DNA from: Chryseosolibacter histidinae
GTDB taxonomy: Bacteria > Bacteroidota > Bacteroidia > Cytophagales > Cyclobacteriaceae
Length of the DNA stretch: 64,000 bases
Direction of reading: 5' to 3'
NCBI RefSeq assembly: GCF_018598225.1
Contig: NZ_JAHESF010000030.1
Coordinates: forward strand, 1-64,000
Below are positions 16,906 through 46,158 of this stretch, in pieces; within the stretch, counting starts at the first letter, position 1; each line of letters opens with the position of its first letter. Under the pieces are notes generated by a model. The model saw nothing but the letters and a program-made list of their open reading frames with translations. It made no database searches and was not told the origin of the DNA. Position numbers and translations under genes: made by a program.

Positions 16906-17406
16906 ATGAATAAAACAGGTGAAGCAAGCGGACGAAAGAGTTTTACAGCCCTGATCGAAAAGCCCGATGATGGAATGGACACTGCTTACATCGCTATTCC
17001 TTTTGATGTCGAAAAAGTATATGGCACCCGTGGCCAGGTAAAAGTGAAAGCGTGGTTCGACGACCATCCTTACCGCGGCGTGCTGGCGAACATGGGCACA
17101 GGCTGCCACATCATCGGCCTGAGAAAAGATATTCGCCAGGCCATTGGCAAACAGGCCGGAGACAAAGTGAAGGTAATACTGGAGCGCGACACGGAAGAAC
17201 GCGTGGTAGACGTTCCGCAGGATCTCCAGCACGCGTTGAAACGATCGCCCAAAGCAGAAAAATTCTTCAACACGCTTTCTTATACCAACAGAAAAGAGTA
17301 CGCCGTTTGGGTGAGCTCTGCCAAGAAAGAAGATACCCGTGAAAAACGCCTGGCCAGTACCATCGAAAAATTGCTGGCGGGAAAGAAAAACCCGTCTGAG
17401 AAGTAA
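16906..17406 (+). CDS. DUF1905 plus YdeI/OmpD-associated-like protein
   Basis: A 166-residue soluble protein. The first half (FTALIEKPDDGMDTAYIAIP to VKVILERDTEERVV) matches DUF1905, a small beta-barrel fold. The second half (DLQHALKRSPKAEKFFNTLS, TNRKEYAVWVSSAKKEDTR) matches the YdeI/OmpD-associated helical module. Fusions of these two occur widely, but their role is not settled; YdeI-like proteins have been tied to peptide resistance and outer-membrane effects. The TAA stop is the first three bases of the heptamer array A2. Confidence 0.82.
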   Translation: MNKTGEASGRKSFTALIEKPDDGMDTAYIAIPFDVEKVYGTRGQVKVKAWFDDHPYRGVLANMGTGCHIIGLRKDIRQAIGKQAGDKVKVILERDTEERVVDVPQDLQHALKRSPKAEKFFNTLSYTNRKEYAVWVSSAKKEDTREKRLASTIEKLLAGKKNPSEK

Positions 17407-17476
17407 TCGGTAATCAGGTATTCGGTAATCGGTTTTGTGAGATGTACAGATTACTGATCACCGATTACTGATCACC
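17404..17476. repeat. TAATCRG heptamer inverted array, copy A2
   Basis: The left arm (17404-17432) reads TAATCGG, TAATCAGG, TATTCGG, TAATCGG. After a 16-base spacer the right arm (17449-17476) is its inverse, built from CCGATTA and CTGATCA units. The left arm supplies the TAA stop of the YdeI-like gene. The right arm supplies the TAA stop (17467-17465) and the last codons of the minus-strand gene. The arms can pair as an imperfect hairpin of about 28 bp between two convergent genes. Confidence 0.85.
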
Positions 17477-17926
17477 AATTTTCCTCAGCCACAGCCTCGC
17501 TTCGCGCATTGATTCGAAATAGCGGATAGTCATTACCTGCGCGTGCTGTGTCATCTCTTTTATAGTGAGTTGTGTGAATTTGCTGCTGGGCATAACAATG
17601 GCGAGGTAGCGGACCCCTGCCTGTTCCATGGCTGGAAGCACATGGGTCTTGAAGTGTTCAACGTCCTCGTCAAGAACTGGCCCGGCAGTGCGGCTGTCGG
17701 TGAGCAGGTGCAGCCTCTGGTAGTTCCCGATCTCACGGTTTACAAGCTCGATCCTTTTTGACTGGACAAAGTTGTAATGCTCACTGTATCGGGGCACACC
17801 ATTCAGCGTAAGCTTTACGCACGGAATGGAGTCGTCCAGCTCGATGGTGGCATACTCATCCTTGTAAAAAGGCTTGATCATGTTTTGTAAACTGCTCAGG
17901 GCTTCAGTTGATTCAACAAAACTCAT
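17465..17926 (-). CDS. Uncharacterised protein with a STAS/SpoIIAA-like appearance
   Basis: A soluble 153-residue protein that I do not recognise with certainty. The alternation of beta-strand and helix and the segments YQRLHLLTDSRTAGPV, VRYLAIVMPSS and IRYFESMREARLWL resemble the SpoIIAA-like/STAS fold often found in Cytophagales proteins of similar length. The final codons Gly-Asp-Gln and the stop are formed by the heptamer array A2, so the C-terminus was probably set by the repeat. It stands alone on its strand, facing the YdeI-like gene. Confidence 0.6.
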   Translation of the reverse strand: MSFVESTEALSSLQNMIKPFYKDEYATIELDDSIPCVKLTLNGVPRYSEHYNFVQSKRIELVNREIGNYQRLHLLTDSRTAGPVLDEDVEHFKTHVLPAMEQAGVRYLAIVMPSSKFTQLTIKEMTQHAQVMTIRYFESMREARLWLRKIGDQ

Positions 17927-18053
17927 GGTTTTAAGGGTTTTTAAGCGGTTTTTTTGTCTTTTGTAAAAATATTAGTTACAAAACTGGCTCTGAAGTAGTC
18001 CAGTGTAAACTTATATTTTACATATCTTTATAGAACACAAATGCTTATACGTT

Positions 18054-18437
18054 ATGGCGGTGGAAATCGGACACAAAATCAAAGAAGTATTTGATCATCA
18101 GAATATGAAACTCACGGATTTTGCTGATGAGCTTGGCACCGTGAGGCAGAACGTGTACAGGATCTTCAAGAAGCGTCACCTCGACACGGGGCTGCTGCTG
18201 AAGATCTCACAGGTGTTGAACCACAACTTCTTCCAGTACTATATTTCCAGCTCCGAGACGGGCGACGTTCTCCAGGTGGCTGAGCTCAAAAAACTTTCGC
18301 AGGAAAATACCGAACACCTGCGTCAGCTCGAGCTGGCGAAAAAAGAGATCGACTACCTGCGCAAGATCATCAAGCTGATGGAAGAGAAAGCGGAGCTCGT
18401 TCAGCAGGTTGGCAAAGACACCATGATGCTTCACTGA
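18054..18437 (+). CDS. Small helix-turn-helix regulator with C-terminal coiled coil
   Basis: A 127-residue putative transcription factor. Residues 4-60 form a Cro/C1-type HTH (IGHKIKEVFDHQNMKLTDFA, DELGTVRQNVYRIFKK). Residues 75-115 are a leucine-rich, heptad-patterned helix (LKKLSQENTEHLRQLELAKK) likely to drive dimerisation. No effector domain is present. It overlaps the convergent methyltransferase gene by seven bases. Targets are unknown; the AT-rich stretch upstream (18000-18050) may carry its own promoter and possible autoregulatory site. Confidence 0.8.
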   Translation: MAVEIGHKIKEVFDHQNMKLTDFADELGTVRQNVYRIFKKRHLDTGLLLKISQVLNHNFFQYYISSSETGDVLQVAELKKLSQENTEHLRQLELAKKEIDYLRKIIKLMEEKAELVQQVGKDTMMLH

Positions 18438-19069
18438 GCTGTTCTTCTCACCAGCACAGCGCTCCTGATAAAAGAACCAAAAAAAGACGCAGCCTTCACT
18501 TCCACCAATCCATGAAGGCTCAGCTTCAGCTGCCATGGCGGAAGCTGTCTTGTATCCAGGCTGCAGGTGATCCTGAAGAACAGATACATCATGCGCAGCA
18601 ACAAACGCTGCCACCATTTCCCACCATCCACAAAATCACAGGCGAGCCACACCGCGTTATGCTGCAGGTGCGGTTGTATGCTACGGATCACTTCGTCCAG
18701 TGCCGGGGCGGTGAACAGATCGAGAAAAAAATGCGTGATCACAGCATCGTACAGAAGGCCTTCGGGAATGTTCTGCTGGGTGCCATGAATAAAATGAACC
18801 CGGCTGCCCTGCGCATCGCTGATCTTTCTGCGGCTCTGCGCGATCATGGAAGAAGAAGCCTCTACATACCACACCTCGCATGAAGGGTTCAGGTCGAGCA
18901 ATACATGCAAGAGCTGCCCCGTGCCACCGCCGATGATCAGCACCTTGCTGTGAGGTGGTATGTTATCCAGGTAAAAGCGCTGCGCCTTGTCCAGGCTTTT
19001 TCCGAACACCACATGTGCCAGCGCGTCGTAAACACCGGCCACTTTGTTGAAGCTGTTCAGCGATCTCAT
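18431..19069 (-). CDS. Class I SAM-dependent methyltransferase
   Basis: A 212-residue Rossmann-fold methyltransferase. Motif I is VLIIGGGTGQLLHVLL near residue 40, with the acidic ribose-binding position in VWYVEASSSMI and a motif-II/III region around LYDAVITHFFLDLF. The start FNKVAGVYDALAHVVFGKSL recalls UbiE-like quinone methyltransferases, and it directly follows a UbiA-like gene with a 4-bp ATGA overlap. A role on a prenylated or lipid substrate is therefore plausible but inferred from context only. The 3' end overlaps the HTH gene tail-to-tail. Confidence 0.83.
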   Translation of the reverse strand: MRSLNSFNKVAGVYDALAHVVFGKSLDKAQRFYLDNIPPHSKVLIIGGGTGQLLHVLLDLNPSCEVWYVEASSSMIAQSRRKISDAQGSRVHFIHGTQQNIPEGLLYDAVITHFFLDLFTAPALDEVIRSIQPHLQHNAVWLACDFVDGGKWWQRLLLRMMYLFFRITCSLDTRQLPPWQLKLSLHGLVEVKAASFFGSFIRSAVLVRRTAQ

Positions 19070-19875
19070 AACAGATAGATTCCGGGGATCAGGAACACCG
19101 CGTCACCCGTGAGCCGGTAGTAGGGCACCAGCTTGTGACGGAAAATAAAGATCAGCAACAGTACTGCATTCATGGCCCAGAAAATAAAAACTGGCCCGCT
19201 GCAGCCACTGGTGAGACAAAGTACAACACCCAGCGCAAAGTTCACCACCAGTAATGTCCAGATGCAATAGGCGGTGAAACGCCTGCCCAGCACGGTTACA
19301 AATGAGCTGAGCTTGTCGGCCGTATCGGTGTCGCTGTCGAACCACGAGAACATCAGCAGGTTTGTCAGCGCCGTGAGCCCGAACTGCATGATGAGCACCA
19401 TGTGAACTGAAGTGATGGAAAGCTTAGTAACAGAGAGCGATGGAAGCAACACACCCGCGGTGTACAATACAGCGATGAAGATCTCTTTCAAAAACTTCAG
19501 GTATCGCTGCCCTAAAAGATAAACGGCCACCAGCGCTGCCAGGAACAGGCCCCACATGAAGACCTGCTTGCGGATGAAAAAGATGATGATGGTATCGGCG
19601 GCCAGCGCAACCACCATCAGCACGAACAACACCATGAAATGTTTTTGATGGAACCGGTGACGCTCAGAGGCGGCTTGTTTACCAATGGCTTTCGCATCGC
19701 GCAGGTGATCTGCCGTGTAGATGATCCATACCGTGAGGCCCAGCGCCATGAGACCGTATGACAGGATGGCCACGCCCAGCAGCTTTGCAAAGAACATCGC
19801 GCTGATCACCGCTCCTGCCACGATATCGAGGCTCAGGATGTTGAACAGGCGATATAATCGGATGATCCTGTGCAT
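19066..19875 (-). CDS. UbiA-superfamily-like integral membrane protein
   Basis: A hydrophobic protein of 269 residues with about eight or nine transmembrane helices. Two polar, aspartate-containing loops, IYTADHLRDAKAIG near residue 52 and FSWFDSDTDTADKLSSF near residue 180, sit where UbiA prenyltransferases carry their two Mg2+-diphosphate-binding motifs. The first lacks the full NDxxDxxxD spacing, so the protein may be divergent or use another substrate. It overlaps the downstream methyltransferase (ATGA). It begins just past the terminator of the atp operon, so it is probably transcribed separately. Alternatives are another prenyltransferase-fold enzyme or an inactive homologue. Confidence 0.68.
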   Translation of the reverse strand: MHRIIRLYRLFNILSLDIVAGAVISAMFFAKLLGVAILSYGLMALGLTVWIIYTADHLRDAKAIGKQAASERHRFHQKHFMVLFVLMVVALAADTIIIFFIRKQVFMWGLFLAALVAVYLLGQRYLKFLKEIFIAVLYTAGVLLPSLSVTKLSITSVHMVLIMQFGLTALTNLLMFSWFDSDTDTADKLSSFVTVLGRRFTAYCIWTLLVVNFALGVVLCLTSGCSGPVFIFWAMNAVLLLIFIFRHKLVPYYRLTGDAVFLIPGIYLL

Positions 19876-19878
19876 AAA

Positions 19879-19908
19879 AAAAGAGACGCAGGTAATGGCG
19901 TCTCTTTT
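19879..19908 (-). terminator. Terminator after atpG
   Basis: An 11-bp stem (AAAAGAGACGC / GCGTCTCTTTT) with an eight-base loop. On the minus strand it ends in a run of seven T. It lies between the atpG stop and the UbiA-like start and should end the atp operon transcript. Confidence 0.88.
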
Positions 19909-19930
19909 ACAAATTTATAAAGAAACTGTA

Positions 19931-20815
19931 TTATGCTGACTTCAATGCTTCGGCACCACCCACGATCTCGAGGATCTCTTTGGTAATGGCTGCCTGACGC
20001 GTTCTGTTGTATGTAAGCTTCAGCTGCTTCAGAAGCTCGCCTGCGTTCTCGGTAGCTTTGTCCATGGCTGTCATCCGCGCACCGTTCTCTGCTGCGTTTG
20101 AATCCAGCACCGCCTTGTACAGCTGCACCTTCAGCGACTTGGGGATGAGGCCGGTGATGATCTCTTCCTGGCTGGGCTGATAGATGTAGTCTACCTGGCT
20201 TGCGGTATTGTCTTTTGCAGGAGGCAATATGGGCAGGAACTGCTCTGTTCTGAGCACCTGCGTGGCTACGTTCTTGAACTCGTTGTAAACCAGCTCTACC
20301 TTGTCATACTTGCCTTCCTGGAAGCCTTGCATGATGTACTCCGCTGCGCGTGCAACATTGTCGAACGCGAGGTTGCCGAAGATACCGGTGTAATCGCTTA
20401 CCAGTGAGCACTTGCGTTTGCCGAAATAATCAGCAGACTTTCTACCAATGGCCAGCACGGTAACATTGCCTTTCCTGAACTGGTCGGCATATTTCTCGTC
20501 GATGAGGCGGTTCACACCCTTGAAGACGCTGCTGTTAAAGGATCCGCAAAGACCGCGGTCTGAGCTTACGGCAACGATCAGGATCTTCTTCTCTTCACGA
20601 ACGTGGCTGTACCAGTTGTCGCCATCGGCATTAAGCTGGGCGGCAGAAAGGTTCTTCAGAATGGAGTTCAGCTTCAGCGCAAACGGCCTCATCTGGATGA
20701 TCCGTTCCTGCGACTTACGCAACTTTGCCGCCGCCACCATTTTCATGGCTTTGGTGATCTGCTGCGTAGACATCACTGAAGTGATCCTGTTTTTAACTTC
20801 CTTTAAACTGGGCAT
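19931..20815 (-). CDS. atpG: ATP synthase F1 gamma subunit
   Basis: The rotor shaft of F1, 294 residues. The N-terminus (SLKEVKNRITSVMSTQQITK) and C-terminus (LLKQLKLTYNRTRQAAITKEI) form the conserved coiled coil that turns inside the alpha3beta3 ring. The central Rossmann-like domain includes VAVSSDRGLCGSFNS. It is the last gene of the operon, 40 bases after atpA. The usual downstream atpD and atpC are absent here, as is common in Bacteroidota, where they lie at another locus. A strong terminator follows. Confidence 0.97.
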   Translation of the reverse strand: MPSLKEVKNRITSVMSTQQITKAMKMVAAAKLRKSQERIIQMRPFALKLNSILKNLSAAQLNADGDNWYSHVREEKKILIVAVSSDRGLCGSFNSSVFKGVNRLIDEKYADQFRKGNVTVLAIGRKSADYFGKRKCSLVSDYTGIFGNLAFDNVARAAEYIMQGFQEGKYDKVELVYNEFKNVATQVLRTEQFLPILPPAKDNTASQVDYIYQPSQEEIITGLIPKSLKVQLYKAVLDSNAAENGARMTAMDKATENAGELLKQLKLTYNRTRQAAITKEILEIVGGAEALKSA

Positions 20816-20855
20816 CTCTTATCGTTAAAAATATGCTGCTTCTTTACGACTGATC

Positions 20856-22433
<1,578 letters not shown>

Positions 22434-22446
22434 AGTAATTAAGAGA

Positions 22447-23007
22447 TTAATATTCTTTTATATAGGGGTTCTGACTAAACTTCATTTTTAATGTCTTGAT
22501 CTTGTTCTTGATGGAGGCGTCGATCTGACGGTCGCCTACCTTCAATACAAATCCGCCGATCATCTCGGGGTCTACACGCTCTTCGAGCTCCACCTGTTTC
22601 TTTTCGCTGTATGCTTTCACGAGGTTCTCGAACTCAGCGCGCAGCTTTGCATCGAGGGGAACTGCCGATGTGATCGTGGCTTTTCCGATACCCTTGTGCT
22701 CGTTGTAGGCATTGTGGAATTCTTTCGCAATAGCGCCCAGCAGGGGTTCACGGTTTTTCCTGGTAATGATGTCGAAGAAAGACATGGTCAGGTTGTTCAC
22801 CTTGCCTTTGAAGATCTTCGACAGGATCTCCCTTTTCTTGTCGTGCGGGATCACCGGGCTGCGCAACATCAGCGCAAAGTCCTTGCTTTCGTTATACGTT
22901 TTTGAAAAGAAGATCATGTCATTATGCACGTTCTCCAGCACCTTCTGCTCGAGGGCGAGGTCGAGGAGAGACTTCACATAACGCGATACTGCTCTTGAGT
23001 CTGCCAT
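22447..23007 (-). CDS. atpH: ATP synthase F1 delta subunit
   Basis: The peripheral-stalk subunit joining the top of F1 to the b subunits, 186 residues. The helical N-terminal domain ([39 protein letters not shown]) and the C-terminal part with [19 protein letters not shown] are typical of the OSCP/delta family. It lies between atpF (four bases upstream) and atpA (13 bases downstream), the standard order. Confidence 0.96.
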
Positions 23008-23011
23008 GATC

Positions 23012-23506
23012 TTAGTTGATCTTTAAGTCTTTGATATAGCCTTCAACGAGGTCTTTCTGAGCCTTGTCTCCGGAAAGGTTTTTCTTCATGAGCTTCTCGG
23101 CGATGTCGAGCGCGAACATGGAAACCTGGATCCTCACTTCTTTCAGCGCGGCCTGTTTTTCGATGTTGATGGCTGCCTTGGCATCTTCGATGATCTTATC
23201 GGCAGTTTTCTTGGCATCGTGCTGCGCTTCATCTTTCATGCGGTTGGCCACTTCGCGGGCCTCGCGCAGGATCCTTTCACGCTCTTCGCGGGCCTCCTTC
23301 AGCAGGCGCTCGTTGTCTGACCGCAGCTGTGACATTTCATGCCTTGCTTTCTCGGCAGTGTCAAGGGCGTCCTGGATGGAACGCTCGCGCTCTTTCAATG
23401 AGTTGATGATCGGCTTCCAGGCAAGCTTGGAAAGCAGGAGCACCAAAAGCACAAAAACTATAAGCTGCCAAATGATCAGGCCCGTTCCGGGGGTGAGAAG
23501 TTCCAT
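23012..23506 (-). CDS. atpF: ATP synthase Fo b subunit
   Basis: The peripheral-stalk subunit, 164 residues. There is one N-terminal transmembrane helix (LIIWQLIVFVLLVLLLSKLA) followed by WKPIINSLKERERSI, then a long charged coiled coil rich in Glu, Lys and Arg that dimerises, and a C-terminal segment (ALDIAEKLMKKNL) binding delta. It is separated from atpE by 79 bases containing a hairpin, unlike the tight spacing of the genes downstream. Confidence 0.96.
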   Translation of the reverse strand: MELLTPGTGLIIWQLIVFVLLVLLLSKLAWKPIINSLKERERSIQDALDTAEKARHEMSQLRSDNERLLKEAREERERILREAREVANRMKDEAQHDAKKTADKIIEDAKAAINIEKQAALKEVRIQVSMFALDIAEKLMKKNLSGDKAQKDLVEGYIKDLKIN

Positions 23507-23541
23507 AGTTATATTTTATCAGATCGTTTCAAATAAAGTAA

Positions 23542-29689: not shown

Positions 29690-31985
29690 CATTCTCTTGC
29701 TTCAGAAGCCGTGGTTCAAAAAAGTAATAAAAGCCGTCTGGATCCTTTTCTTGTGTGTGGTCATCGGCGTGCCGCTATATGTGTATACGGTCAAGGCTGA
29801 CCTGTTCGGGTTATTTGGAGGCATGCCAAGCCTCAAATCGATCGAAAATCCGCAAAACGACCTTTCTTCTGAGCTCATTTCTGCCGATGGTGTATCACTT
29901 GGAAGGTACTTCAGGTATAACAGGAGCCAGGTGGCGTACGAACAGCTTTCGCCCGATCTGGTAAACACCCTGCTGCTGTCAGAAGATCACCGTTTTTACG
30001 ATCACTCCGGCATGGACTTCTGGGCTTACCCACGCGTGCTGTGGGGCCTGCTGACATTCAATAACCGTGGCGGCGGAAGCACCATCACGCAGCAGCTCGC
30101 CAAGAACCTTTTCAGAACAAGGGGCGATGAACTCGATGGCACACTCACCCGTGTTGGCGGTCCGCTGAAGATCCTGGTCAGCAAAACCAAGGAGTGGATC
30201 ATCTCCGTACAGCTCGAAGAGAATTATACGAAGGAAGAGATCATCACCATGTACCTGAACACGGCCGAGTTCAGCAGCAACGCCTATGGCATCAAGGTGG
30301 CCGCCGAAACGTATTTTCAAAAACAGCCAGACAGCCTTAACGTGCTGGAGTCAGCGGTGCTCGTGGGCATGCTGCAGAACCCTTCATTTTACAATCCTCA
30401 GCGCAACCCGAACAACGCATTGCGTAAACGCAATGAAGTATTGTACAAGCTTTACGCCCGCAACTACATCAAGTCACAAGCAGAACACGACTCACTGAAG
30501 AACATACCCATCCAGTTGAAGTTCTCCGTTCAAAATCAAAACCAGGGCCTGGCCACTTACTTCAGGAGTGTGTTAACCTCCTTTCTCATGAAGTGGTGCA
30601 AAGACCATAACTACGATCTGTGGGAGTCGGGCTTGAAGATCTACACCACCATTGACAGCCGCATGCAGCAGTTTGCGGAAGAAGCCATGGCCGAACACAT
30701 GTCCAAGCTGCAGAAGGAATTCGAAACCCAGTGGAAGCTGAAGAACAGCAATCCCTGGACCGATTCGGATACCAAAGCGGAGATCAAAAATTTCCTTCAG
30801 CGGAAGATCAAAAAAACAGAGACCTACAAAAATCTTGTAGCGCGTTATGGCGAAAATTCCGACTCAGTGAACATTATGCTGAACGTGAAGAAGCCCATGA
30901 CGGTATTTTCGTGGAAGGGCGAGCGCGATACGCTGTTCAGCTCCATGGACTCGCTTCGTTATTACAACTGGTTCCTGCAGGCTGGCATGATGTCTATGGA
31001 TCCGGAAACCGGCGCCATCAAGGCCTGGGTAGGTGGTATCAACCACAAATATTTCAAGTACGATCACGTGAAGCAGGGAACGCGGCAACCGGGCTCTACG
31101 TTCAAACCTTTTGTTTACGGGAAGGCGATCGAAGACGGGTACTCGCCCTGCTTCGAGCTGCTCGATATCTCTCCTACCATCAAAGTACCGGGCGGCGTGT
31201 GGAATCCGCCGAACTCAGACGGAACTTACGGTTCGGGCGAAAAGATGAACCTGCGTGTAGCCATGGCGCGGTCGCTGAACTCGGTCACGGCACAATTGAT
31301 CGCCAAGGTTGGGCCTGCCAACGTTGCGAAATTTGCAAACCAACTCGGCATTTCCAGTCCGTTGGATCCGGTAATGTCGCTGGCCCTGGGAACAAGCGAT
31401 GTGTCTTTGTATGAGATGGTATCGGCTTATTGCAGCTTTGTGAACCTCGGCATGCATATCGAGCCTTACTACGTCACGCGCATCGAAGACAAGAACGGCA
31501 ACGTGATCGAAAGTTTTGTACCCAAAACAGGACAGGCAACCGATGAACGAACCGCTTACAAAATGATCTATATGCTGCAAGGTGGTGTTGAAGAAGAAGG
31601 AGGAAGCTCGCGGGGCATAAGCTATTCGCTGAAGGTTGATAATGAGATCGGGGGCAAGACGGGCACAACGAACGATGCTTCTGACGGCTGGTACATGGGC
31701 ATCACCCATAACCTGGTTACCGGGGCCTGGGTAGGCGGCGACGAACGCACCATCCACTTTCCGAACTGGACGTTCGGGCAGGGCAGCAAAACTGCGCGCC
31801 CCATCTGGGACAAGTATATGGTGAAGGTCTACGAGCATCCGGAAGTGGGCTACGGCAAAGGACTGTTCAAAAGGCCGGCGTCAGGTCTTGATATCGTGCT
31901 CGACTGCAACCGCCACAATGCTTCGGATTCGACCAGCGTAGTTCCCGTAGAGAAAGAAATATCCCTGGACGATATCAACAATTAA
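29640..31985 (+). CDS. Bifunctional penicillin-binding protein 1A family
   Basis: A class A PBP of 781 residues that polymerises and cross-links peptidoglycan. A basic cytoplasmic N-terminus and one membrane helix (VWILFLCVVIGVPLYVYTV) precede the GT51 glycosyltransferase (LLSEDHRFYDHSGMD, GGGSTITQQLAKNLF) and the transpeptidase, with SxxK in PGSTFKPFVYG, SxN in ARSLNSVTAQ and KTG in GGKTGTTNDASDGW. All catalytic motifs are present. The ATG at 29640 lies within sprE; a TTG at 29697, after the sprE stop, is the alternative but would cut the basic leader. The TAA stop is the start of array A3. Confidence 0.95.
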   Translation: MSTSTSSKKTTRRKTNNILLLQKPWFKKVIKAVWILFLCVVIGVPLYVYTVKADLFGLFGGMPSLKSIENPQNDLSSELISADGVSLGRYFRYNRSQVAYEQLSPDLVNTLLLSEDHRFYDHSGMDFWAYPRVLWGLLTFNNRGGGSTITQQLAKNLFRTRGDELDGTLTRVGGPLKILVSKTKEWIISVQLEENYTKEEIITMYLNTAEFSSNAYGIKVAAETYFQKQPDSLNVLESAVLVGMLQNPSFYNPQRNPNNALRKRNEVLYKLYARNYIKSQAEHDSLKNIPIQLKFSVQNQNQGLATYFRSVLTSFLMKWCKDHNYDLWESGLKIYTTIDSRMQQFAEEAMAEHMSKLQKEFETQWKLKNSNPWTDSDTKAEIKNFLQRKIKKTETYKNLVARYGENSDSVNIMLNVKKPMTVFSWKGERDTLFSSMDSLRYYNWFLQAGMMSMDPETGAIKAWVGGINHKYFKYDHVKQGTRQPGSTFKPFVYGKAIEDGYSPCFELLDISPTIKVPGGVWNPPNSDGTYGSGEKMNLRVAMARSLNSVTAQLIAKVGPANVAKFANQLGISSPLDPVMSLALGTSDVSLYEMVSAYCSFVNLGMHIEPYYVTRIEDKNGNVIESFVPKTGQATDERTAYKMIYMLQGGVEEEGGSSRGISYSLKVDNEIGGKTGTTNDASDGWYMGITHNLVTGAWVGGDERTIHFPNWTFGQGSKTARPIWDKYMVKVYEHPEVGYGKGLFKRPASGLDIVLDCNRHNASDSTSVVPVEKEISLDDINN

Positions 31986-32204
31986 TCGGTAAGTGGTGAT
32001 CGGGTGATCAGTAACCGGTGTTTAAACCACAAGCACAATAAGTGTCCCGCAGATCACGCTGATTTTCGCAAATCCATATGAGGACTATTTCTGCGTAGAT
32101 CTGCGCATTCTGCTGGAAATGTATTTTTCTCTGAAAATGTAAAATATTTGTAAGGTTTTCGGGATTTAGAAGGGTTAAACCCCCAGACCGATTACCAATT
32201 ACTA
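31983..32204. repeat. Heptamer array A3 with nested CGCAGAT array C2
   Basis: The outer left arm (31983-32018) has TAATCGG, TAAGTGG, TGATCGGG, TGATCAG, TAACCGG; its first three bases are the PBP1A stop. The outer right arm (32187-32204) has the inverse units CCGATTA and CAATTA, ending just before the uvrC start. Between them lies another inverted repeat: CCCGCAGATCACGCTGA and onward (32046-32070) against CTGCGTAGATCTGCG (32091-32105). One family appears inside the other. No gene is present in this 227-base gap. Confidence 0.78.
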
Positions 32205-32212: not shown

Positions 32213-34039
32213 ATGGCCGAGATCAAGGAGGCTATTCAACGGTTACCAGAGTCACCTGGCGTATACAGGTTTTACAACGCAGACAGTGAGCTGATCTATG
32301 TTGGCAAGGCGAAGAACATCAAAAAAAGGGTCACCAGTTATTTCAGCAAAAGTCACGGTCTTAACCGCAAAACGTTGCGCCTGGCATCTGAGATCAGGTC
32401 GATAGAATATACCGTTGCCTTCAGCGAGTTCGATGCGCTGCTGCTGGAAAACAATTTCATCAAGCAGAACCAGCCGCGGTACAACATCCTGCTGAAGGAT
32501 GACAAGACCTTTCCCTATATCTGTATTCTCAAAGAAAGATTTCCGAGGATCATCTATACCCGGAAATACATTCCTGAACAGGGCGAATATTTTGGACCTT
32601 ACTCCAGCGTGGTGGCCATGAAGAACGTGCTTGACCTTGTGCGCAAGCTCTACTCCATCCGCACCTGCAGCCTGCTGTTGTCTGAGCAAAATATCGCGCA
32701 AGGCAAATTCAAGGTCTGCCTGGAATACCACATCGGCAACTGCAAGGCTCCCTGCGCAGGACTTCAGCAGGAAGAGCAATACCAGGAAGAGATCGAGCAG
32801 GCACGCAACATCCTGAAGGGTAACATCAGCATTGTGTATCAGTACTTCAAGAACCAGATGCAGCAAGCCGCTATCAACCTTGAATACGAAAAAGCTCAAA
32901 AGTTCAAGGAAAAGCTGAGCACGCTCGAAAGGTTCCAAACGAAGTCGCTCGTGGTGAACCGCGACCTCACCGATATCGATGTGCTCACCATCACCAGCAT
33001 TCCTGACTACGCTTATATCAACTATCTGCAGATCAAGGAAGGCGCGATCATTTACTCCAAAACCGTTGAGGTAAAGAAGAAGGCTGACGAAACGGATGAA
33101 GACCTGCTGAGCTTTGCAGCGCAGGAGCTTCGGGCAGGGAACAACCTGACCATTCTCAGCAACGTACCCATTACGCTGCTGGACGAAGACACGGAGAATA
33201 TCATCCCGAAGATCGGCGACAAGAAAAAGCTCATCAGCTTGTCGATCAAGAACGGCCTCGAGCTGAAGAAAGACAAGGAGATCCTGCGCGAAGGAAAAAA
33301 ATCGAAACAGCTTGAAGTGTTGTCGATCCTTCAAAAAGATCTCCAGCTCACGTCACTTCCGCTGGTGATCGAGTGTTTCGATAACTCGAACTTCCAGGGT
33401 ACCACACCGGTGGCCTCGATGGTGCGGTTTGCCAATGGAAAGCCCGACAAAAAAGGCTATCGTCATTTCAATATCAAAACCGTTGTGGGGGCCAATGACT
33501 TTGCGTCGATGCAGGAGATCGTGGGGCGCCGGTATAAACGGATCATGGAAGAAGCAGGCCCACTGCCAGACCTCATCCTGGTTGATGGTGGCAAGGGGCA
33601 GCTGAGCAGCGCCTGTGATGCCTTAAAAGAGCTGGGCCTGTATGGAAAGATCCCCATCGTTGGCATTGCCAAAAAGCTCGAGGAGATCTATTATCCGGAA
33701 GATCCCATCCCCCTTCATATCAACAAAAAATCACCGGGCCTGTTGCTGTTGCAGCATGTGAGGGACGAAGCGCACCGGTTTGCCATTACGTTCCACAGGC
33801 AAAAGCGGAGCAAGGCGCAGATCAAAACCGAGATCGAAGAGCTGAAGGGTATCGGCAGGCAAACCGCGGATAAGCTTCTGAGACACTTCAAATCGGTGAA
33901 GAAGATCCGTGAAGCTTCGCTGGAAGAGCTCACCACGCTTGTGGGCCGCAAGAAAGCGGAGCTTGTCAAGGGCAAGACAATAGAAGCCACTCCACAAGTA
34001 GAAACCACCCCACAAGAAACGCCTGAGGGGCCGAAATAA
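32213..34039 (+). CDS. uvrC: Excinuclease ABC subunit C
   Basis: The nuclease of nucleotide excision repair, making both incisions around a UvrAB-marked lesion. In 608 residues it has the GIY-YIG domain (LPESPGVYRFYNADSELIYV, GKAKNIKKRVTSYF), a cysteine cluster (CLEYHIGNCKAPCAG), the UVR motif binding UvrB (INLEYEKAQKFKEKL), the RNase H-like UvrC domain (IECFDNSNFQGT, LILVDGGKGQLSSA, with catalytic Asp residues) and a helix-hairpin-helix tail. Length and motifs are normal. It ends in a strong bidirectional terminator shared with gldN. Confidence 0.97.
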   Translation: MAEIKEAIQRLPESPGVYRFYNADSELIYVGKAKNIKKRVTSYFSKSHGLNRKTLRLASEIRSIEYTVAFSEFDALLLENNFIKQNQPRYNILLKDDKTFPYICILKERFPRIIYTRKYIPEQGEYFGPYSSVVAMKNVLDLVRKLYSIRTCSLLLSEQNIAQGKFKVCLEYHIGNCKAPCAGLQQEEQYQEEIEQARNILKGNISIVYQYFKNQMQQAAINLEYEKAQKFKEKLSTLERFQTKSLVVNRDLTDIDVLTITSIPDYAYINYLQIKEGAIIYSKTVEVKKKADETDEDLLSFAAQELRAGNNLTILSNVPITLLDEDTENIIPKIGDKKKLISLSIKNGLELKKDKEILREGKKSKQLEVLSILQKDLQLTSLPLVIECFDNSNFQGTTPVASMVRFANGKPDKKGYRHFNIKTVVGANDFASMQEIVGRRYKRIMEEAGPLPDLILVDGGKGQLSSACDALKELGLYGKIPIVGIAKKLEEIYYPEDPIPLHINKKSPGLLLLQHVRDEAHRFAITFHRQKRSKAQIKTEIEELKGIGRQTADKLLRHFKSVKKIREASLEELTTLVGRKKAELVKGKTIEATPQVETTPQETPEGPK

Positions 34040-39701: not shown

Positions 39702-39814
39702 TTAAGATGAAAAAATAGGATTTAAAGTACGTCTATTTTTTCGACACTTTCAACGGGCATGTAATTAAAGTGTAATAAAAGTAACACTTTGCTAAAGTCC
39801 AATGTATGAAGAAG

Positions 39815-40591: not shown

Positions 40592-40613
40592 ATCAGCACG
40601 TAACGTATTCTGG

Positions 40614-41723
40614 CTATTGGAACAGTACCTCGATTGTAATTAACAATGGGATTATTTCGGTCGCACAAATGTACGAAAATAAATGAAACATAGAGTGCTC
40701 GCTTTTGCTGTTAAGTTTCAAAAAAACGATCAGCACCCACGCTGTCATCGTTCCTGTTATCAGTGACAGGAACACCACAAAAAATCCCGGACTCTGACCT
40801 CGCAGGATAAAATAAACGAACAGCACAACGCTGGCCACACCAAAAACGATCAGCAACAGCCGCACCCAGTTGAAGAAATGCACCCGCGCCAGTCCACGAA
40901 GCCCAAACAACCGCGTCAGGGCAAAGATCAACAATATCTTCGTAAAGAAAACCGCCAGTACAATAGCGCTCATCCTGATCCACTGCCACACTACTGCACC
41001 GAAAGTGCGCTCCTGAAAATACAACGGCAGGGCATACTCGTCGGGCAGATGGTGTACCACGATCATCAGATAAAATCCCAGCAGCAGACTGCACGCGATG
41101 TAGAACTGTATGTTGGCGCTGCTCGTTAACCGGGCGTTGGGTTGCGCGTCATCTGCTTCACGCAGGGAAAATATTCTGATAACAGAGAAATAATCGGCGG
41201 AAAGTTTAGGATTCAGCCGCATGGTGACCAGGAAAAGAATGATGATGATCAATCCCGACAGGATAACGAAGTCTCTGAAGTACGTCGAGGGTTTGAAAAT
41301 ATCGATGGCTGCCGATGCATATTGCTGCCGGGTGATGATGGTGGTCTTCAGATCGCGCGAATTGATGCTGGCCTGGTAAATGGTGACAAAGAACGACGAT
41401 GCATAATGCGCCCCCGCCAGGCTGTCGAGCCGGAACAACGCCCGGTTCTGGTATTCACCTGAAAGCTTGCCGTTAAAAAAAACAAAGAAGGGCCGCGCCG
41501 AAGTTACCGACAAAAAGCCACCTGGAAAATTACCGGCCTCCACGTTAAAATAAACCGTGTTGCCGGGCGATGCGTGGGTTTCCGTCAGCAGCTTGTACGT
41601 GCCGCTCTCATATTTCATCCAGGCAGACTGCAGGTCTTTCACCTCAGCAGTTTTCGGCTGGGCAAACAAGGCAGTGAAAGGTAACAGGAGAACAAAAAGC
41701 AGCGGCCGGTAAAATTTATTCAT
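40614..41723 (-). CDS. DUF4271-family membrane protein
   Basis: A 369-residue protein with a signal peptide (LLFVLLLPFTALFAQ), an extracytoplasmic domain of about 130 residues, and six or seven membrane helices in the C-terminal half. DUF4271 proteins are confined to Bacteroidota and are of unknown role; many lie next to hemD and the gld operon, as here. The membrane part contains VVHHLPDEYALPLY between helices and RLFGLRGLARVHFFNWVRLL. It ends 22 bases before hemD, so the two are probably cotranscribed. Confidence 0.82.
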   Translation of the reverse strand: MNKFYRPLLFVLLLPFTALFAQPKTAEVKDLQSAWMKYESGTYKLLTETHASPGNTVYFNVEAGNFPGGFLSVTSARPFFVFFNGKLSGEYQNRALFRLDSLAGAHYASSFFVTIYQASINSRDLKTTIITRQQYASAAIDIFKPSTYFRDFVILSGLIIIILFLVTMRLNPKLSADYFSVIRIFSLREADDAQPNARLTSSANIQFYIACSLLLGFYLMIVVHHLPDEYALPLYFQERTFGAVVWQWIRMSAIVLAVFFTKILLIFALTRLFGLRGLARVHFFNWVRLLLIVFGVASVVLFVYFILRGQSPGFFVVFLSLITGTMTAWVLIVFLKLNSKSEHSMFHLFSYICATEIIPLLITIEVLFQ

Positions 41724-41781
41724 GACACAAAACTATACGAATTGGCGTCATTGTTGAAATGGACGTAAGTTTGAATTTATT

Positions 41782-42912
41782 ATGGCAGGAATTTACATCC
41801 ACATCCCTTTTTGCAAGCAGGCCTGCCATTACTGTGACTTTCATTTTTCCACCAGCACAGCCATCCGCCAGGAGCTTCTCAACGCCATGTCAGACGAGCT
41901 CTTGCTTCAGCGACATTACCTTTACGGCGAAAAGGTTGAGACCATCTATTTCGGCGGCGGCACACCGTCATTGCTAGGCGCAGATGAGCTCAATCTGCTG
42001 CTGAAACCTGTAAACACATTGTTTACGGTGGCACCCGATGCTGAAGTAACATTGGAAGCCAATCCCGACGACCTTACCCCTTCCAGGCTGGCGGAACTGC
42101 GGCAACTTGGCATCAACCGGTTGAGCATCGGCATCCAGTCGTTTCAGGACAGCGTGCTGAAATTCCTGAACCGTGCACACGATGCCACCGCAGCCATGCA
42201 GTGCGTTGGGCAGGCGCGGCAGGCAGGCTTTCAGAACATCAGCATTGACCTGATCTATGCCATTCCCGGCCAGGCTGACGAAGCATGGCAGGCCAACATC
42301 GATGCCGCACTGAAGCTTGCACCGGAGCACATCTCTTCTTATTCGCTCACCATCGAAGAGAAGACCGCTTTTGGCCGGTGGGCTGCGCAGGGGAAGCTGA
42401 AGGCGGCGGATGATGACCTCGCTGCAAAACAACTGGAGATGCTTGTGGCTACGCTCGAGCGCGAAGGTTATGAGCAGTACGAGGTCTCTAACTTTAGCAA
42501 ACCGGGTTATCAGTCGCGTCATAACAGCAGCTACTGGAAACAGCAGCGTTACCTGGGCATCGGACCCAGCGCCCACTCGTATGACAAGGTGAGCCGGCAG
42601 TACAATGTGAGCAATAATCATCAGTATGTGCGGTCGATGAAAGAAGGCAGGATCCCTTTTGAGCGCGAGGTGCTTTCAACAGAAGATCATGTAAACGAAT
42701 ACCTGCTCACCACACTGCGCACACAGTGGGGAAGCGACCTGGAGAAACTGAAACAGGAATACGGCTATGATGTGCTTGGGCAACACGGTGGTCTGATCAA
42801 TGATCTGCTGGCCAGAAAACTGGCCGTGGTTGAAAGGAATTTTTTAAAGCTCACCCGAACCGGCAGGCTGCTCGCCGACAAGATCTCATCCGATTTATTT
42901 TTGATTTCTTAA
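41782..42912 (+). CDS. hemW: Radical SAM heme chaperone HemW
   Basis: A 376-residue radical SAM protein formerly annotated as oxygen-independent coproporphyrinogen oxidase. The iron-sulfur motif is IHIPFCKQACHYCDFHF (CxxxCxxC followed by Phe, not the extra Cys of true HemN). SAM-binding parts are TIYFGGGTPSLL, VTLEANPDDLT and INRLSIGIQSFQ. HemW binds heme and delivers it to respiratory proteins; the lack of the fourth cysteine supports HemW over HemN. It is read divergently from the DUF4271 gene. Confidence 0.93.
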   Translation: MAGIYIHIPFCKQACHYCDFHFSTSTAIRQELLNAMSDELLLQRHYLYGEKVETIYFGGGTPSLLGADELNLLLKPVNTLFTVAPDAEVTLEANPDDLTPSRLAELRQLGINRLSIGIQSFQDSVLKFLNRAHDATAAMQCVGQARQAGFQNISIDLIYAIPGQADEAWQANIDAALKLAPEHISSYSLTIEEKTAFGRWAAQGKLKAADDDLAAKQLEMLVATLEREGYEQYEVSNFSKPGYQSRHNSSYWKQQRYLGIGPSAHSYDKVSRQYNVSNNHQYVRSMKEGRIPFEREVLSTEDHVNEYLLTTLRTQWGSDLEKLKQEYGYDVLGQHGGLINDLLARKLAVVERNFLKLTRTGRLLADKISSDLFLIS

Positions 42913-42965
42913 CCGGGTTTATCACGCCATTTTGGTAATTTCCGGCCCCCATTACAAACAACCCC

Positions 42966-43334
42966 ATGAAATCTTCTGAAGAAAAGAAGGTATATATGCT
43001 TTTGAAATCGGTGATCTTCCATTACCACGGACTTGACGAGGAAGAAAAGAAAGACCTGGACAAAACATCGGAAGAGCTGGATGCAAAATCAGAGTATACC
43101 TGGGCACTGCAGTTTATTTCGGAAGATTATATCACCGCATTTGACCGGGCGAGGGAGTATCTCAACAACATCATCGGCGACTATCCGAAAGACAAACGTA
43201 TAGAGCTGATCAACATGGTGTGGCAGGCTAATAACCTCAAAGGTTATGTAACTGAGATGGAAGCAACTGCGATGCTCAAACTGGCCAAGGATTGGAACGT
43301 ACAAAAGGAACTGATCGACCTGGTTCTCAAATGA
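42966..43334 (+). CDS. Small TerB-like helical protein, function unknown
   Basis: A 122-residue, charged, all-helical protein. The spacing of acidic residues in the second half (AFDRAREYLNNIIGDYPKDK, MEATAMLKLAKDWNVQKELI) recalls TerB/DUF533-like domains, which bind metal ions in tellurite-response systems. I see no membrane segment and no partner Ter gene. The assignment is tentative. It lies 53 bases after hemW and 122 before the LOG-family gene, all on the same strand. Confidence 0.6.
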   Translation: MKSSEEKKVYMLLKSVIFHYHGLDEEEKKDLDKTSEELDAKSEYTWALQFISEDYITAFDRAREYLNNIIGDYPKDKRIELINMVWQANNLKGYVTEMEATAMLKLAKDWNVQKELIDLVLK

Positions 43335-43456
43335 GGTTTCTAATCAAATAAAATTTCTAATTTCAAACCTGTCTGCCGGTAGGCGGCTTGCTGATCCTGA
43401 CCGTGCCGCGAAGGTGGTCGATAGGGATCGGAAATTGTTAATCAGGAATATCGCGC

Positions 43457-44209
43457 ATGAAAACCAGAAAGAAAAAATTAGATGAAGACCTGCTGAAAAC
43501 GGCCCTGGAAGAAGAAAACCGGATCCGTACAGCATTCAAGGATAAGGACTGGGCGGAGATCAAAGGTGCCAACAGCTGGATGATATTCAAGGTGATGTCC
43601 GAGTTTGTGGAGGGTATGGAAAAACTTGCCAAGATTGGGCCCTGCGTCACCATTTTCGGTTCCGCCCGCACCAAACCCGGCAATGTTTATTACAAGATGG
43701 CAGAGGAGATCGCCTTCAGGCTTGTGCAGCATGGCTACGGTGTGATCACGGGTGGCGGCCCCGGTATTATGGAAGCCGGCAACAAAGGCGCCCACCGTGC
43801 GGGTGGCAAGTCCGTTGGTCTCAACATTTTTCTGCCCTTCGAACAGCAGGGCAACATCTATATCGACAAAGACAAGCTCATCACCTTCGATTACTTCTTC
43901 GTGAGAAAGGTGATGTTCGTGAAGTATTCGCAGGGTTTTATCGTGATGCCCGGTGGCTTCGGCACGCTGGACGAGCTCACGGAAGCGTTGACGCTTATCC
44001 AAACCAAAAAGATCGGACGGTTCCCCATTGTGATGGTGGGAAAAAAATACTGGCATGGACTTGTTGACTGGATCAAAAAAGTGCTGATCAGCGAAAAGAT
44101 GATCCACGCCCAGGATATGGACCTGTTCAGCGTGGTAGATACACCGGAAGACGCCGTGAAAGTGATTGAAGAGTTCTATTCGAAGTATTTGTTATCGCCT
44201 AATTTTTAA
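43457..44209 (+). CDS. LOG-family protein (TIGR00730 Rossmann fold)
   Basis: A 250-residue enzyme with the LOG signature GGGPGIMEAGNKGAHRAGG and PGGFGTLDELTEALTLIQT. Members hydrolyse nucleoside 5'-monophosphates to free base and ribose 5-phosphate; plant and some bacterial LOG proteins activate cytokinins, while PpnN acts on purine monophosphates under stress. The N-terminal 50 residues are an additional charged helix. The activity here is inferred from motifs. The TAA stop overlaps the next ATG by one base, coupling it to the lytic transglycosylase gene. Confidence 0.9.
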   Translation: MKTRKKKLDEDLLKTALEEENRIRTAFKDKDWAEIKGANSWMIFKVMSEFVEGMEKLAKIGPCVTIFGSARTKPGNVYYKMAEEIAFRLVQHGYGVITGGGPGIMEAGNKGAHRAGGKSVGLNIFLPFEQQGNIYIDKDKLITFDYFFVRKVMFVKYSQGFIVMPGGFGTLDELTEALTLIQTKKIGRFPIVMVGKKYWHGLVDWIKKVLISEKMIHAQDMDLFSVVDTPEDAVKVIEEFYSKYLLSPNF

Positions 44210-45147
44210 TGAAACAGCTATCCATTTTTCTGGCGCTCAGCGCCATCATTATTCTATTTGCCTATATTTCCTACAATGAGCTCAGGCATCGTTCCAGTCC
44301 GCAGACCATGTCTGACGAGGCTGTGGCAACCCCGGAGTTCAACGTGGAGAGTGGTCCGCTGCCGGCGATATCGTACGATCTTCCCAACAACGTAACGTTT
44401 GCGGGCGAGCCGGTTCCCATGGAGCTGCCGGATGTGCGCGAGCGGCTAGACAAAGAGTTGCAGATCAACATCTACCTCCACAGCAATACCATCTTCCTTA
44501 TCAAACGCGCCAACCGCTGGCTGCCACAGATGCAGGAGATCTTGAGAGCGCATGGCATTCCCGATGATTTCAAATACCTGCCCCTGATCGAAAGCAACCT
44601 GCTGAACGTGGTCTCTCCTGCCGAAGCGGTGGGCTACTGGCAGATCCTCAAAACCTCGGGACAGGAGTTCGGACTTGAGATCACCAACGAAGTAGACGAG
44701 CGCTACAATCCCCTGAAAGCAACGGAGGCGGCATGCAAATACCTGAAGCAGGCATACCGCAAATTCGGCAACTGGACTCTGGTGGCGGCATCGTATAACC
44801 GCGGCATGGGCGGCATTGAACGCGCCATCGAGAACCAGCGGGAGAAGTCCTACTATGATCTTTTTCTCAACGAAGAGACCTCGCGTTACGTGTTCCGCAT
44901 CATCGCCATCAAAGAGATCGTAGAGAACCCGGTGCGTTACGGTTTCAAAATAAATCCGAAGCATTACTACGACGAAGAGCCGCTGGAATATGTAGAGGTG
45001 ACCGAAACAGTGAAGAGCCTGGTAGACTTTGCCAAACATCACGGCACCAATTACAAGCTGATCAAACGCCACAACCCATGGCTGCGCGATGAGAAGCTGA
45101 CGGTGAAGAAAGGCAGGAGGTATAAGATTGCGTTACCGGGAAAATAG
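44209..45147 (+). CDS. Membrane-anchored lytic transglycosylase (SLT family)
   Basis: A 312-residue protein with an N-terminal signal anchor (LSIFLALSAIIILFAYISYN). The SLT catalytic domain has the family-1 motifs: YLPLIESNLLNVVSPAEAVG with catalytic Glu, GYWQILKTSGQEFGL, and VAASYNRGMGGIERAIE. The C-terminus (LIKRHNPWLRDEKLTVKKGR) is LysM-like but short. It should cleave glycan strands with formation of 1,6-anhydro-muropeptides. It overlaps the upstream LOG-family gene by one base. The repeat array B2 begins 14 bases after its stop. Confidence 0.92.
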   Translation: MKQLSIFLALSAIIILFAYISYNELRHRSSPQTMSDEAVATPEFNVESGPLPAISYDLPNNVTFAGEPVPMELPDVRERLDKELQINIYLHSNTIFLIKRANRWLPQMQEILRAHGIPDDFKYLPLIESNLLNVVSPAEAVGYWQILKTSGQEFGLEITNEVDERYNPLKATEAACKYLKQAYRKFGNWTLVAASYNRGMGGIERAIENQREKSYYDLFLNEETSRYVFRIIAIKEIVENPVRYGFKINPKHYYDEEPLEYVEVTETVKSLVDFAKHHGTNYKLIKRHNPWLRDEKLTVKKGRRYKIALPGK

Positions 45148-45161
45148 TTCGATTCAAGGGG

Positions 45162-45283
45162 CGAGATACGAAGTACGTGGGAATCTCGTTCTTCGTACCT
45201 CGTATTTCGTACCTGGATTTGTAGTTTGCCTCAATAAATTCGTACTTCGTACCTCGTATCCCGATAGCTATCGGGACGTACCT
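45162..45283. repeat. TACGARR heptamer array B2 with inserted palindrome
   Basis: There are three blocks: GAGATACGAAGTACGT (45163-45178); the inverse block CTCGTTCTTCGTACC and onward (45185-45213); and a second inverse block (45241-45283) that is split by the 18-bp palindrome at 45259-45276. CGTA stands immediately on each side of the palindrome (45255-45258 and 45277-45280). The array ends eight bases before the creatininase start. Confidence 0.82.
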
Positions 45284-45290
45284 AAAAACC

Positions 45291-46052
45291 ATGCGTCCAT
45301 ACATACTTGCCGAGAATAACTGGAAGACTGTAAAAGAAACAGCCTATACGTTGGCTGTGCTTCCCTGGGGGGCTACGGAAGCCCACAACTATCATTTGCC
45401 TTACGGAACAGATATCGTGGAAGCTGAGCAGGTGGCTGCGGAGGCTGCCAGGATCTCGTGGGAGGCGGGTAACAAAGTGGTGGTGCTGCCTTGCATTCCC
45501 TTTGGAGTAAACACGGGGCAGTTCGATGTGAAGCTCGATATGAACATGAATCCCAGCACACAACTTGCCGTGCTGCGCGATGTGGTGGACGTGCTGAACC
45601 GCCAGGGCATCTACAAGCTGGTGATCCTCAACAGCCACGGTGGCAACGACTTCAAGACCATGATCCGGGAGCTGGGGCTGCAGTATCCGAAAATGTTTCT
45701 CTGCAGCTGCAACTGGTATCAGGCTGTTGATCAGAAACAGTACTTCGAAAATAAAGACGACCATGCAGGCGAAATGGAAACCAGTGTGATGATGCACCTC
45801 ACGCCTCACCTGGTAAGACCTCTGTCAGAGGCAGGCGATGGTGCTGCCAAAAAATTCCGCATCACTGCCATTCGCGAAGGATGGGCGTGGTCTGAGCGCA
45901 AGTGGCTGCAGGTAACAAAAGATACGGGCGTGGGCGATCCGCGCAAAGCGTCAGCGGAAAAAGGGCAACGTTACTTCAAGGCTGTGACTGAAAAAGTAGC
46001 CGCCTTTTTTACAGAAGTAGCCCAGGCTGACAACAACGACCTCTACGCTTAA
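45291..46052 (+). CDS. Creatininase-family metal-dependent hydrolase
   Basis: A 253-residue cytoplasmic hydrolase of the creatininase/MftE superfamily. Metal ligands are visible in LPWGATEAHNYHLPYGTD (Glu, His, Asp), in ILNSHGGNDFK and in DDHAGEMETSVMM. Relatives act on creatinine, on formamides in riboflavin/F420 synthesis, or on modified peptides; no pathway partner is adjacent, so the substrate is open. The TAA stop is the beginning of heptamer array A4. Confidence 0.88.
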   Translation: MRPYILAENNWKTVKETAYTLAVLPWGATEAHNYHLPYGTDIVEAEQVAAEAARISWEAGNKVVVLPCIPFGVNTGQFDVKLDMNMNPSTQLAVLRDVVDVLNRQGIYKLVILNSHGGNDFKTMIRELGLQYPKMFLCSCNWYQAVDQKQYFENKDDHAGEMETSVMMHLTPHLVRPLSEAGDGAAKKFRITAIREGWAWSERKWLQVTKDTGVGDPRKASAEKGQRYFKAVTEKVAAFFTEVAQADNNDLYA

Positions 46053-46158
46053 TCAGTAATCGGTATTCGGTGATGAGTAATCGGTTTTGAGCGTTCGTAC
46101 TGTCTGTGTTGTTCTGTACACAGTTTACCGGTTACTGATTACTGGTTACCGTTCACCG
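46050..46158. repeat. TAATCRG heptamer inverted array, copy A4
   Basis: The left arm (46050-46084) has five units: TAATCAG, TAATCGG, TATTCGG, TGATGAG, TAATCGG. The right arm (46125-46158) is the inverse. On the minus strand its units TGAACGG and TAACCAG encode the end of ScpA, and the next unit, TAATCAG, supplies its TAA stop. The 40-base spacer holds no gene. Together the arms could form a long imperfect hairpin between two convergent genes. Confidence 0.87.

Follow-up and report, generated by a model that had tools for sequence, protein, structure and literature searches.

Inward-facing arrays of seven-base units at gene ends of Chryseosolibacter histidinae: candidate mobile hairpin elements

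REP/BIME elements (repetitive extragenic palindromes and bacterial interspersed mosaic elements), moved by REP-associated tyrosine transposases (RAYTs), are dispersed extragenic imperfect hairpins, often in alternating orientation, and heptamer arms are not known to form part of their definition. DNA uptake sequences occur as inverted pairs behind genes and in species dialects, with a single, non-tandem unit per genome. A tetranucleotide tag at the foot of the REP hairpin (PMC3733652), a minisatellite-bearing miniature inverted-repeat transposable element (MITE) of Porphyromonas gingivalis (PMC4596501) and heptamer satellites in Chloroflexus (PMC6749651) have been described, and among long repeats, those with a heptamer unit have been called the most frequent class in many prokaryotes (Mrazek 2007, quoted in PMC4679880). 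Rehm et al. (2015, PMC4692102) explained the GGGAATC / GGGGA(C/T)T heptamer repeats of Xanthomonas and Nostoc by G-quadruplexes (G4), and reported for GGGAATC a four-unit preference, 70 and 75 convergent pairs, positions near or over stop codons and, in Xanthomonas RNA sequencing, transcripts that start or stop at G4-capable heptamer repeats more than at control repeats. The TAACTGA direct repeats of Beggiatoaceae, Cyanobacteria and some Bacteroidetes were described by MacGregor (2015, PMC4679880) as placing stops in all frames and overlapping the ends of upstream open reading frames (ORFs), mostly just upstream of start codons; they were inverted in 1 of 170 sets, and direct repeats of related heptamers were rare in the genome. 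Here we examined arrays of a TAATC-containing heptamer in a window of 64,000 nucleotides from Chryseosolibacter histidinae (positions 1 to 64,000, forward strand, of contig NZ_JAHESF010000030.1, assembly GCF_018598225.1). On balance, we lean towards reading these arrays as small, non-coding, dispersed two-armed hairpin elements that were gained whole and kept where they are least harmful. We observed their two-armed architecture, their placement, species-specific units, and gaps longer than those of relatives.

The motif TAATCRG occurred 23 times in the window versus 12.3 (sd 3.4) in shuffled sequence, and 0 of 100 shuffles reached 23. The clusters that a preliminary description of this DNA had placed at about 105-140, 17404-17476, 31983-32204 and 46050-46158 were all found there. 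Its claim that the TAA stop codon is itself part of a TAATCRG unit also held at all five gene ends named: those of the YdeI/OmdA-like gene (stop at 17404-17406), its convergent neighbour (17465-17467), the PBP1A-like gene (31983-31985), the creatininase gene (46050-46052) and the ScpA gene (46139-46141). Gene names in the window were taken from Pfam matches (E 0.001); the predicted minus-strand genes at 150-3272 and 17465-17881, both beside arrays, had no Pfam match at that threshold. The repeat unit is better framed as GTRATCR than as TAATCRG.

The complete convergent element with its flanks (17397..17482) folds at -28.8 kcal/mol (z -4.7). Its left arm (17403..17431, plus strand), of four units and one extra middle base, begins within the final codons of the YdeI/OmdA-like gene, whose stop it gives, and its right arm (17448..17475, minus strand), of four units, gives the stop of the convergent gene at 17465-17881. 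The 46-kb element (z -3.7) has a left arm of five degenerate units (46049..46083, plus strand) that gives the creatininase stop, and a right arm (46128..46163, minus strand; core 46129-46149, with degenerate outer units) that gives the scpA stop. The arms of the element at 31983-32204 are weak: the left one (31982..32017, plus strand) follows the PBP1A-like gene, whose stop is the TAA of the first unit, and the short right one (32188..32203, minus strand), of two units, lies directly before a UvrC-like gene (32213-34039). Finally, the four-unit arm at 112..139 (minus strand), about 10 bp past the stop of the minus-strand gene ending at 150, has no visible partner because the window begins at base 1 of its contig, and any partner would fall beyond the contig end. 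Rfam at the gathering threshold returned one tRNA only over the window, and positions 46000-46200 gave no match up to E 1.

The genome comprises 8.04 Mb in 122 contigs, and the two-unit pattern GTRATCRGTRATCRG had 133 matches in it (63 and 70 per strand) versus 0 for the pattern read backwards. Families were surveyed in a 1.31-Mb sample, consisting of 441 kb of contiguous DNA and 870 kb chosen around TAATC arrays. Contigs C11 and C27 had been picked for having GTRATCRGTRATCRG matches, the unit lists of the families were drawn up after inspecting C11, itself part of the sample, and genes were called with a custom codon-score script, not a standard gene finder. A unit-agnostic periodicity scan of the 441 kb detected 36 runs of period 7, all 36 of them intergenic, 0 runs at periods 4-6 and 8-13, 27 at period 14 (a harmonic of 7) and 0 in shuffles; the targeted 870 kb held 78 period-7 runs versus 0-2 for each of the remaining periods up to 13. 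We distinguished at least nine heptamer families (GTRATCR/GTATTCG, GTTTRAR/GTTTCAA, RTACGAR, GTCSACR, GTCSATR, GTTRCCR, GTAAGRA/GTAAGTA, GYCAGRA and GAYNTGA; below they carry five-letter names such as TAATC), and TACGA arrays alone had 133 matches in the genome. The nine families comprised 398 arms, of which 391 were intergenic and 7 had their middle inside a predicted gene; reversed-unit controls gave 0-6 pairs per family, compared with 21-179 for the true units.

Same-family arms less than 400 bp apart pointed inward in 116 cases, outward in 0 and in the same direction in 7 (32, 0 and 2, respectively, in the contiguous part alone). Since the orientation of an arm is one free choice per family, this inward bias cannot stem from labelling. 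The facing arms are terminal inverted repeats, as in MITEs, and the spacers of the 116 pairs measured 11-245 nt, with family-typical lengths (TAATC median 32; TTGCC 81-132). Allowing one mismatch per unit, 204 of the 398 arms had four units; four was the commonest number in eight of the nine families, tied with three in TTGCC, and was still the mode when two mismatches were allowed.

In seven families, the median minimum free energy z of the elements ranged from -3.8 to -6.9. Their stem, though strong, is imperfect: contrary to expectation, the two arms of one element paired worse than random partners from the same family (the five larger families gave z of -2.3 to -3.3 for the within-element match, and two small families -1.9 and -1.1). 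In a direct comparison of units, likeness was lower within than between elements for TCCAC (P 0.0006; 15 elements) and TCCAT (P 0.0004; 9 elements), and the difference was not significant for TACGA (5 elements) and TAATC (4). Either there are two arm types and the element occurs both ways round, or selection acts against perfect palindromes; for TCCAC, the unit tables suggest two arm types, GTCGAC often being unit 2 in one arm and unit 3 in the other. The motif GTGnnGTG, which by eye had looked promising as a shared inner motif, was dropped because too few arms carried it, although it exceeded expectation (0.008 per arm) in some families (TCAGG 3/29, TAATC 1/97, TCCAC 5/62, TCCAT 6/39, TTGCC 9/53, and 0 in the other four).

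Measured from their outer ends, arms of the seven larger families lay a median of 4-16 bp away from gene 3' ends, and family medians for the distance to a 5' end were 67-162 bp. Among gaps of at least 80 bp, the share with an arm was 58/107 for convergent, 123/321 for co-directional and 37/159 for divergent gaps; over all gaps, it was 73/175, 132/631 and 37/176, respectively. The arms had been described as inverted and foldable, and this was borne out: facing arms in the window fold, with the z scores given above. Convergent gaps hold arms most often.

The window also contains heptamer families that the preliminary description lacked, namely TACGA (8987-9059 and 45185-45259) and TCAGG (54874-54901). 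The first TACGA element (8987..9059), with 4 + 4 units and a stop-free unit, lies 7 bp past the stop of a DUF2721 gene (8584-8979); two further TACGA arms (45185..45259, minus strand) lie between an SLT gene (44209-45147) and the creatininase gene. The TCAGG arm (54874..54901, plus strand) includes one GTAAGGA unit, and the TAA of this unit serves as the stop codon of a DEAD-box helicase gene (53625-54884). By eye, a common spacer core of about GATAGCTCGATCTGCATTCATC was seen in the TACGA elements at C11:127498, L084:1170, L090:9212, L100:12078 and window position 8987, in the opposite orientation in the last. Different families were joined or lay within one another's spacers, again by eye, at C11:160369, C27:28537, C27:70074 and C11:220010, with the same order, GTCAGRA then GTAAGGA, in three places.

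We compared syntenic DNA from two genomes of the same genus, G001 and G002, with 64-81% identity in matched stretches. Relative to the orthologous gap, the median length difference was +90 bp for arm-bearing gaps (12 comparisons, covering 10 gaps of our genome) and 0 for gaps without an arm (78 comparisons; P 0.006 versus arm-bearing ones). For both convergent pairs of the window, the two genes overlap or abut in relatives, the gap being 58 bp here versus -4 for one pair, and 86 versus 2 and -10 for the other. In particular, the genes flanking 17397-17482 overlap by 4 bp in G002, where no array is found, and both stops of each pair lie inside the array here.

The units themselves are largely species-specific. 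Neither G001 nor G002 had a TAATC two-unit match, and the pattern was found in 12 of 58 relatives, with 1-7 matches each and 16 in one. TACGA arrays had 12 and 23 matches in two of the 58, both of other genera, and 0 or 1 in the other 56; in G038 and G028, TACGA polarity was 2 inward and 3 same, which is thin evidence. Period-7 runs numbered 21 in 340 kb of G002, 3 in 100 targeted kb of G001, and 0 in 100 kb each of G017 and G030. The heptamers of the sister species G002 were mostly other units (GTCAYTR, GCTNCAA, GATTTNA, GTTCAAR and more), and its arms pointed 17 times inward, 0 outward and once in the same direction. Positional sharing was weak: any heptamer array was present in G002 at 5 of the 16 orthologues of our array-bearing ends versus 5 of 57 others (P 0.035), and in G001 at 0 of 7 versus 2 of 60. 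One gene end carries different arrays in the two species, TCCAC here (L087:18563-19999) and GTCACTR in G002 (L283:15763-18213).

When named genomes were scanned for three TAATC units, at least 119 stretches were returned, several from the same genomes, so that their breadth is a rough lower bound; the 80 titles listed included Cyanobacteria, Chloroflexi, Planctomycetota, Verrucomicrobia, Bacteroidota and others, with many metagenome bins. Arms in these stretches pointed 14 times inward, once outward and 5 times in the same direction, and their unit number peaked at four (42 of 162 arms; the search itself required three), reaching 47 in one other genome. Genes in these stretches and in the phage below were defined by a longest-ORF rule. 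Among the 150 TAATC arms in the stretches listed, 4 lay inside an ORF and 15 had no neighbour; the outer side faced a gene 3' end at 81 (median 5 bp) and a 5' end at 50 (median 58.5 bp), and on the inner side the medians were 62.5 and 112 bp, respectively. Viral contigs gave 48 matching stretches, with 60 arm pairs inward, 4 outward and 52 in the same direction, counted over overlapping pieces. In one tailed-phage piece, L371 (1-13935), with genes for a tail tape measure, a baseplate hub and tail proteins, arrays were seen by eye at 10 of 12 gene junctions, mostly beginning a few bases from the stop. The facing arrays of L371 consist of TAATC/TGATC/GGCCA heptamers around an inner core like GTTTTTTGC-TTTTGCCTTTAC. 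This core is resembled by GGTTTTG, which follows the left TAATC arm of the window at 17431-17437 and 46083-46089 and occurs in several other elements. Several further viral contigs were also rich in arrays.

If the arrays are mobile hairpin elements, whole elements would be gained through a mobilising mechanism that acts on the folded strand, with a REP- or MITE-like outcome. They would persist mainly where harm is least, behind the stop codon of a gene and ahead of its neighbour's 5' region. For families bearing TAA, a position a few codons into a coding sequence, or at an overlapping convergent junction, would be tolerable as well, because the array re-supplies stops, and the hairpin, once in place, may act as a passive structure at the mRNA 3' end. 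The shared TACGA spacer core is the clearest sign of copied elements; families that are joined, or lie within one another's spacers, look as if elements insert into elements, and we also counted in favour the lower likeness of arms within an element than between elements.

A number of results weigh against mobility. The 116 pairs showed no target-site duplication above shuffles (shared 5-mers 12 versus 10.8, 6-mers 2 versus 2.0), and their spacers were mostly unalignable, a poor fit to a copied element. No mover was found: the genome has 4 Y1_Tnp matches (relatives 2-7), with an array within about 1.5 kb at only one of the four loci, and no link to a Y1 transposase as mover was seen. Only 232 of the 398 arms belong to a detected facing pair, leaving 166 without. 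Counting exact units only shifts the mode from four to two (166, 98, 100 and 18 arms with two, three, four and five units), although the drop from four to five persists; in G002 the four-unit mode is clear for one of five families only (GCTNC, 13 of 18 arms), and TACGA arms in G038 and G028 favour two units (13 of 17 and 6 of 9), with no four-unit mode. Of the 12 arm-bearing gap comparisons, 9 were longer here and 3 shorter, and the elements may have been gained here or lost in the relatives, the direction resting on two genomes at the identity given above. For Xanthomonas, the authors reported greater genomic stability near their repeats (PMC4692102). Finally, the mixed unit numbers elsewhere, together with arms being as frequent in co-directional as in divergent gaps when all gaps are counted, weaken the mobile-element reading and its foremost alternative about equally.

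That alternative, possible though less likely, is a selected bidirectional 3'-end signal, in which the hairpin ends or stabilises the flanking transcripts and is hence kept beside stops. The arms hug 3' ends and avoid 5' ends, with the graded shares in gaps of at least 80 bp given above; folding is strong, most junctions of the phage piece carry arrays, positions are weakly shared with G002, and the reported Xanthomonas transcript starts and stops at G4-capable repeats (PMC4692102) point the same way. Over all gaps, however, the arm share is equal in co-directional and divergent ones, and since elements make gaps longer, filtering at 80 bp introduces a bias. A run of TTTT within 10 nt beyond the element was found at 23 of 232 ends versus 239 of 3486 in the background, only a slight excess and short of the T-run of an intrinsic terminator. 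Most orthologous gene ends do without an array (11 of 16 in G002, 7 of 7 in G001), and the worse pairing of arms within one element than between random family partners also argues against such a signal.

It is unlikely that the arrays are ordinary heptamer microsatellites, grown in place by replication slippage. Tandem 7-bp units that vary in number, up to the 47 mentioned, and the commonness of heptamers among long prokaryotic repeats would suit this origin. The same units nevertheless recur at many unlinked loci, with 116 pairs inward and none outward, and with a four-unit mode, family-typical spacers and, by eye, a recurring order of joined families; dispersal and polarity thus disfavour pure slippage.

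Less probable still is the role proposed in the preliminary description, a selected all-frame, both-strand stop signal that trims genes. The arrays do supply stops, as claimed: among arms with a gene 3' end on their outer side, to which all overlap counts refer, 20 of 58 TAATC arms overlap coding sequence by at least 4 nt, 19 of the 20 by exactly 4, 11 or 18 nt, which is the TAA of unit one, two or three, and convergent genes that overlap or abut in relatives both receive their stops from the array here. Such overlap was found in 28 of 92 arms of the stop-bearing families (TAATC as above, TTTAA 3/22, TAAGG 4/8, GATAT 1/4) versus 3 of 109 arms of stop-free ones (P 5e-8); TCCAT (2/20) was excluded from this test, its unit being able to carry TAG, and the sole TACGA case was a mutated unit containing TAA. 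Families with a stop-free unit (TACGA, TTGCC, TCCAC) nonetheless lie as near to stop codons as stop-bearing ones, so the stop does not explain the placement. It looks like a permit for coding overlap rather than the reason for the position, and stop-codon function is most likely a by-product in TAA-bearing families.

Trimming, too, proved slight. Among 140 reciprocal protein pairs, 18 had an array at the 3' end of our gene, and the unaligned tails differed by few residues: ours was shorter in 8, equal in 6 and longer in 4 (3, 2 and 1 in the six pairs with the stop inside the arm; 5, 4 and 3 in the twelve whose arm follows the stop). The latter group includes the two creatininase pairs although their stop sits in a degenerate unit, and scpA, whose arm has no exact unit pair, was missed; both genes are in the positional-sharing comparison. 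Exactly equal tails were rarer with an array (6 of 18) than without (73 of 122). Orthologues mostly without an array stop at about the same place, an outcome named beforehand as speaking against a stop signal. The stop-free families largely refute that role.

A G-quadruplex element of the kind put forward for GGGAATC repeats is highly improbable: the four-unit preference and the placement resemble those repeats (PMC4692102), and GG units may form weaker two-tetrad structures, but none of the nine unit families has a GGG tract, and the four-unit mode is retained nonetheless, even in TTTAA and GATAT, which have no regular GG.

Beyond this genome, we suggest only tentatively that mobile hairpin elements of this kind form a widespread class in bacteria and phages, with many different heptamers, a tendency to four units, inward arms and a mismatched stem. 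If so, there would be a dedicated machine that recognises or builds a folded arm of 4 x 7 nt, with each lineage evolving its own unit, and the GGGAATC and TAACTGA repeats already described would represent two dialects within one element class. The question would then move from unit-specific ideas, such as quadruplexes and translation signals, to the architecture: why seven, about four and inward, whatever the letters. The arrays also suggest how a non-coding element may enter overlapping convergent genes and leave them unbroken, by bringing its own stops. The loci, the sister species and the phage named here are places where gain, mobility and an effect on transcript ends can be examined.

The preliminary description knew of no named element with such behaviour. 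Precedents exist, namely the all-frame stops reported for the TAA-bearing heptamer (PMC4679880) and the convergent pairs reported at or over stop codons (PMC4692102). Like the repeats of Rehm et al., the arrays consist of tandem 7-bp units, are mostly intergenic (391 of 398 arms), occur as two convergent arrays and prefer four units (204 of 398 arms), a preference that is lost with exact units only and mixed in other genomes; they differ in having no GGG in any of nine unit families, many units in one genome and regular arm mismatches. The complement of TAACTGA, GTTATCA, differs from GTAATCA by one base, but the units here are GTRATCR and others, and the placement is at the 3' end (4-16 bp) and not the 5' end (67-162 bp). 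As dispersed extragenic imperfect hairpins, the elements resemble REP/BIME sequences, with no link to a RAYT found here. They resemble MITEs as short non-coding inverted-repeat elements with tandem repeats, and differ from them in the period of 7 and in that neither a target duplication nor a partner transposase was found here. With DNA uptake sequences they share species dialects and inverted pairs at gene ends, but they are tandem, with several units per genome. In the open-access literature we found no report of a single genome with facing heptamer arms of several families, subscription papers being outside the search. New here are the many units per genome, the four-unit preference without G-tracts, the species-specific units, and a phage with arrays at most of its gene junctions.

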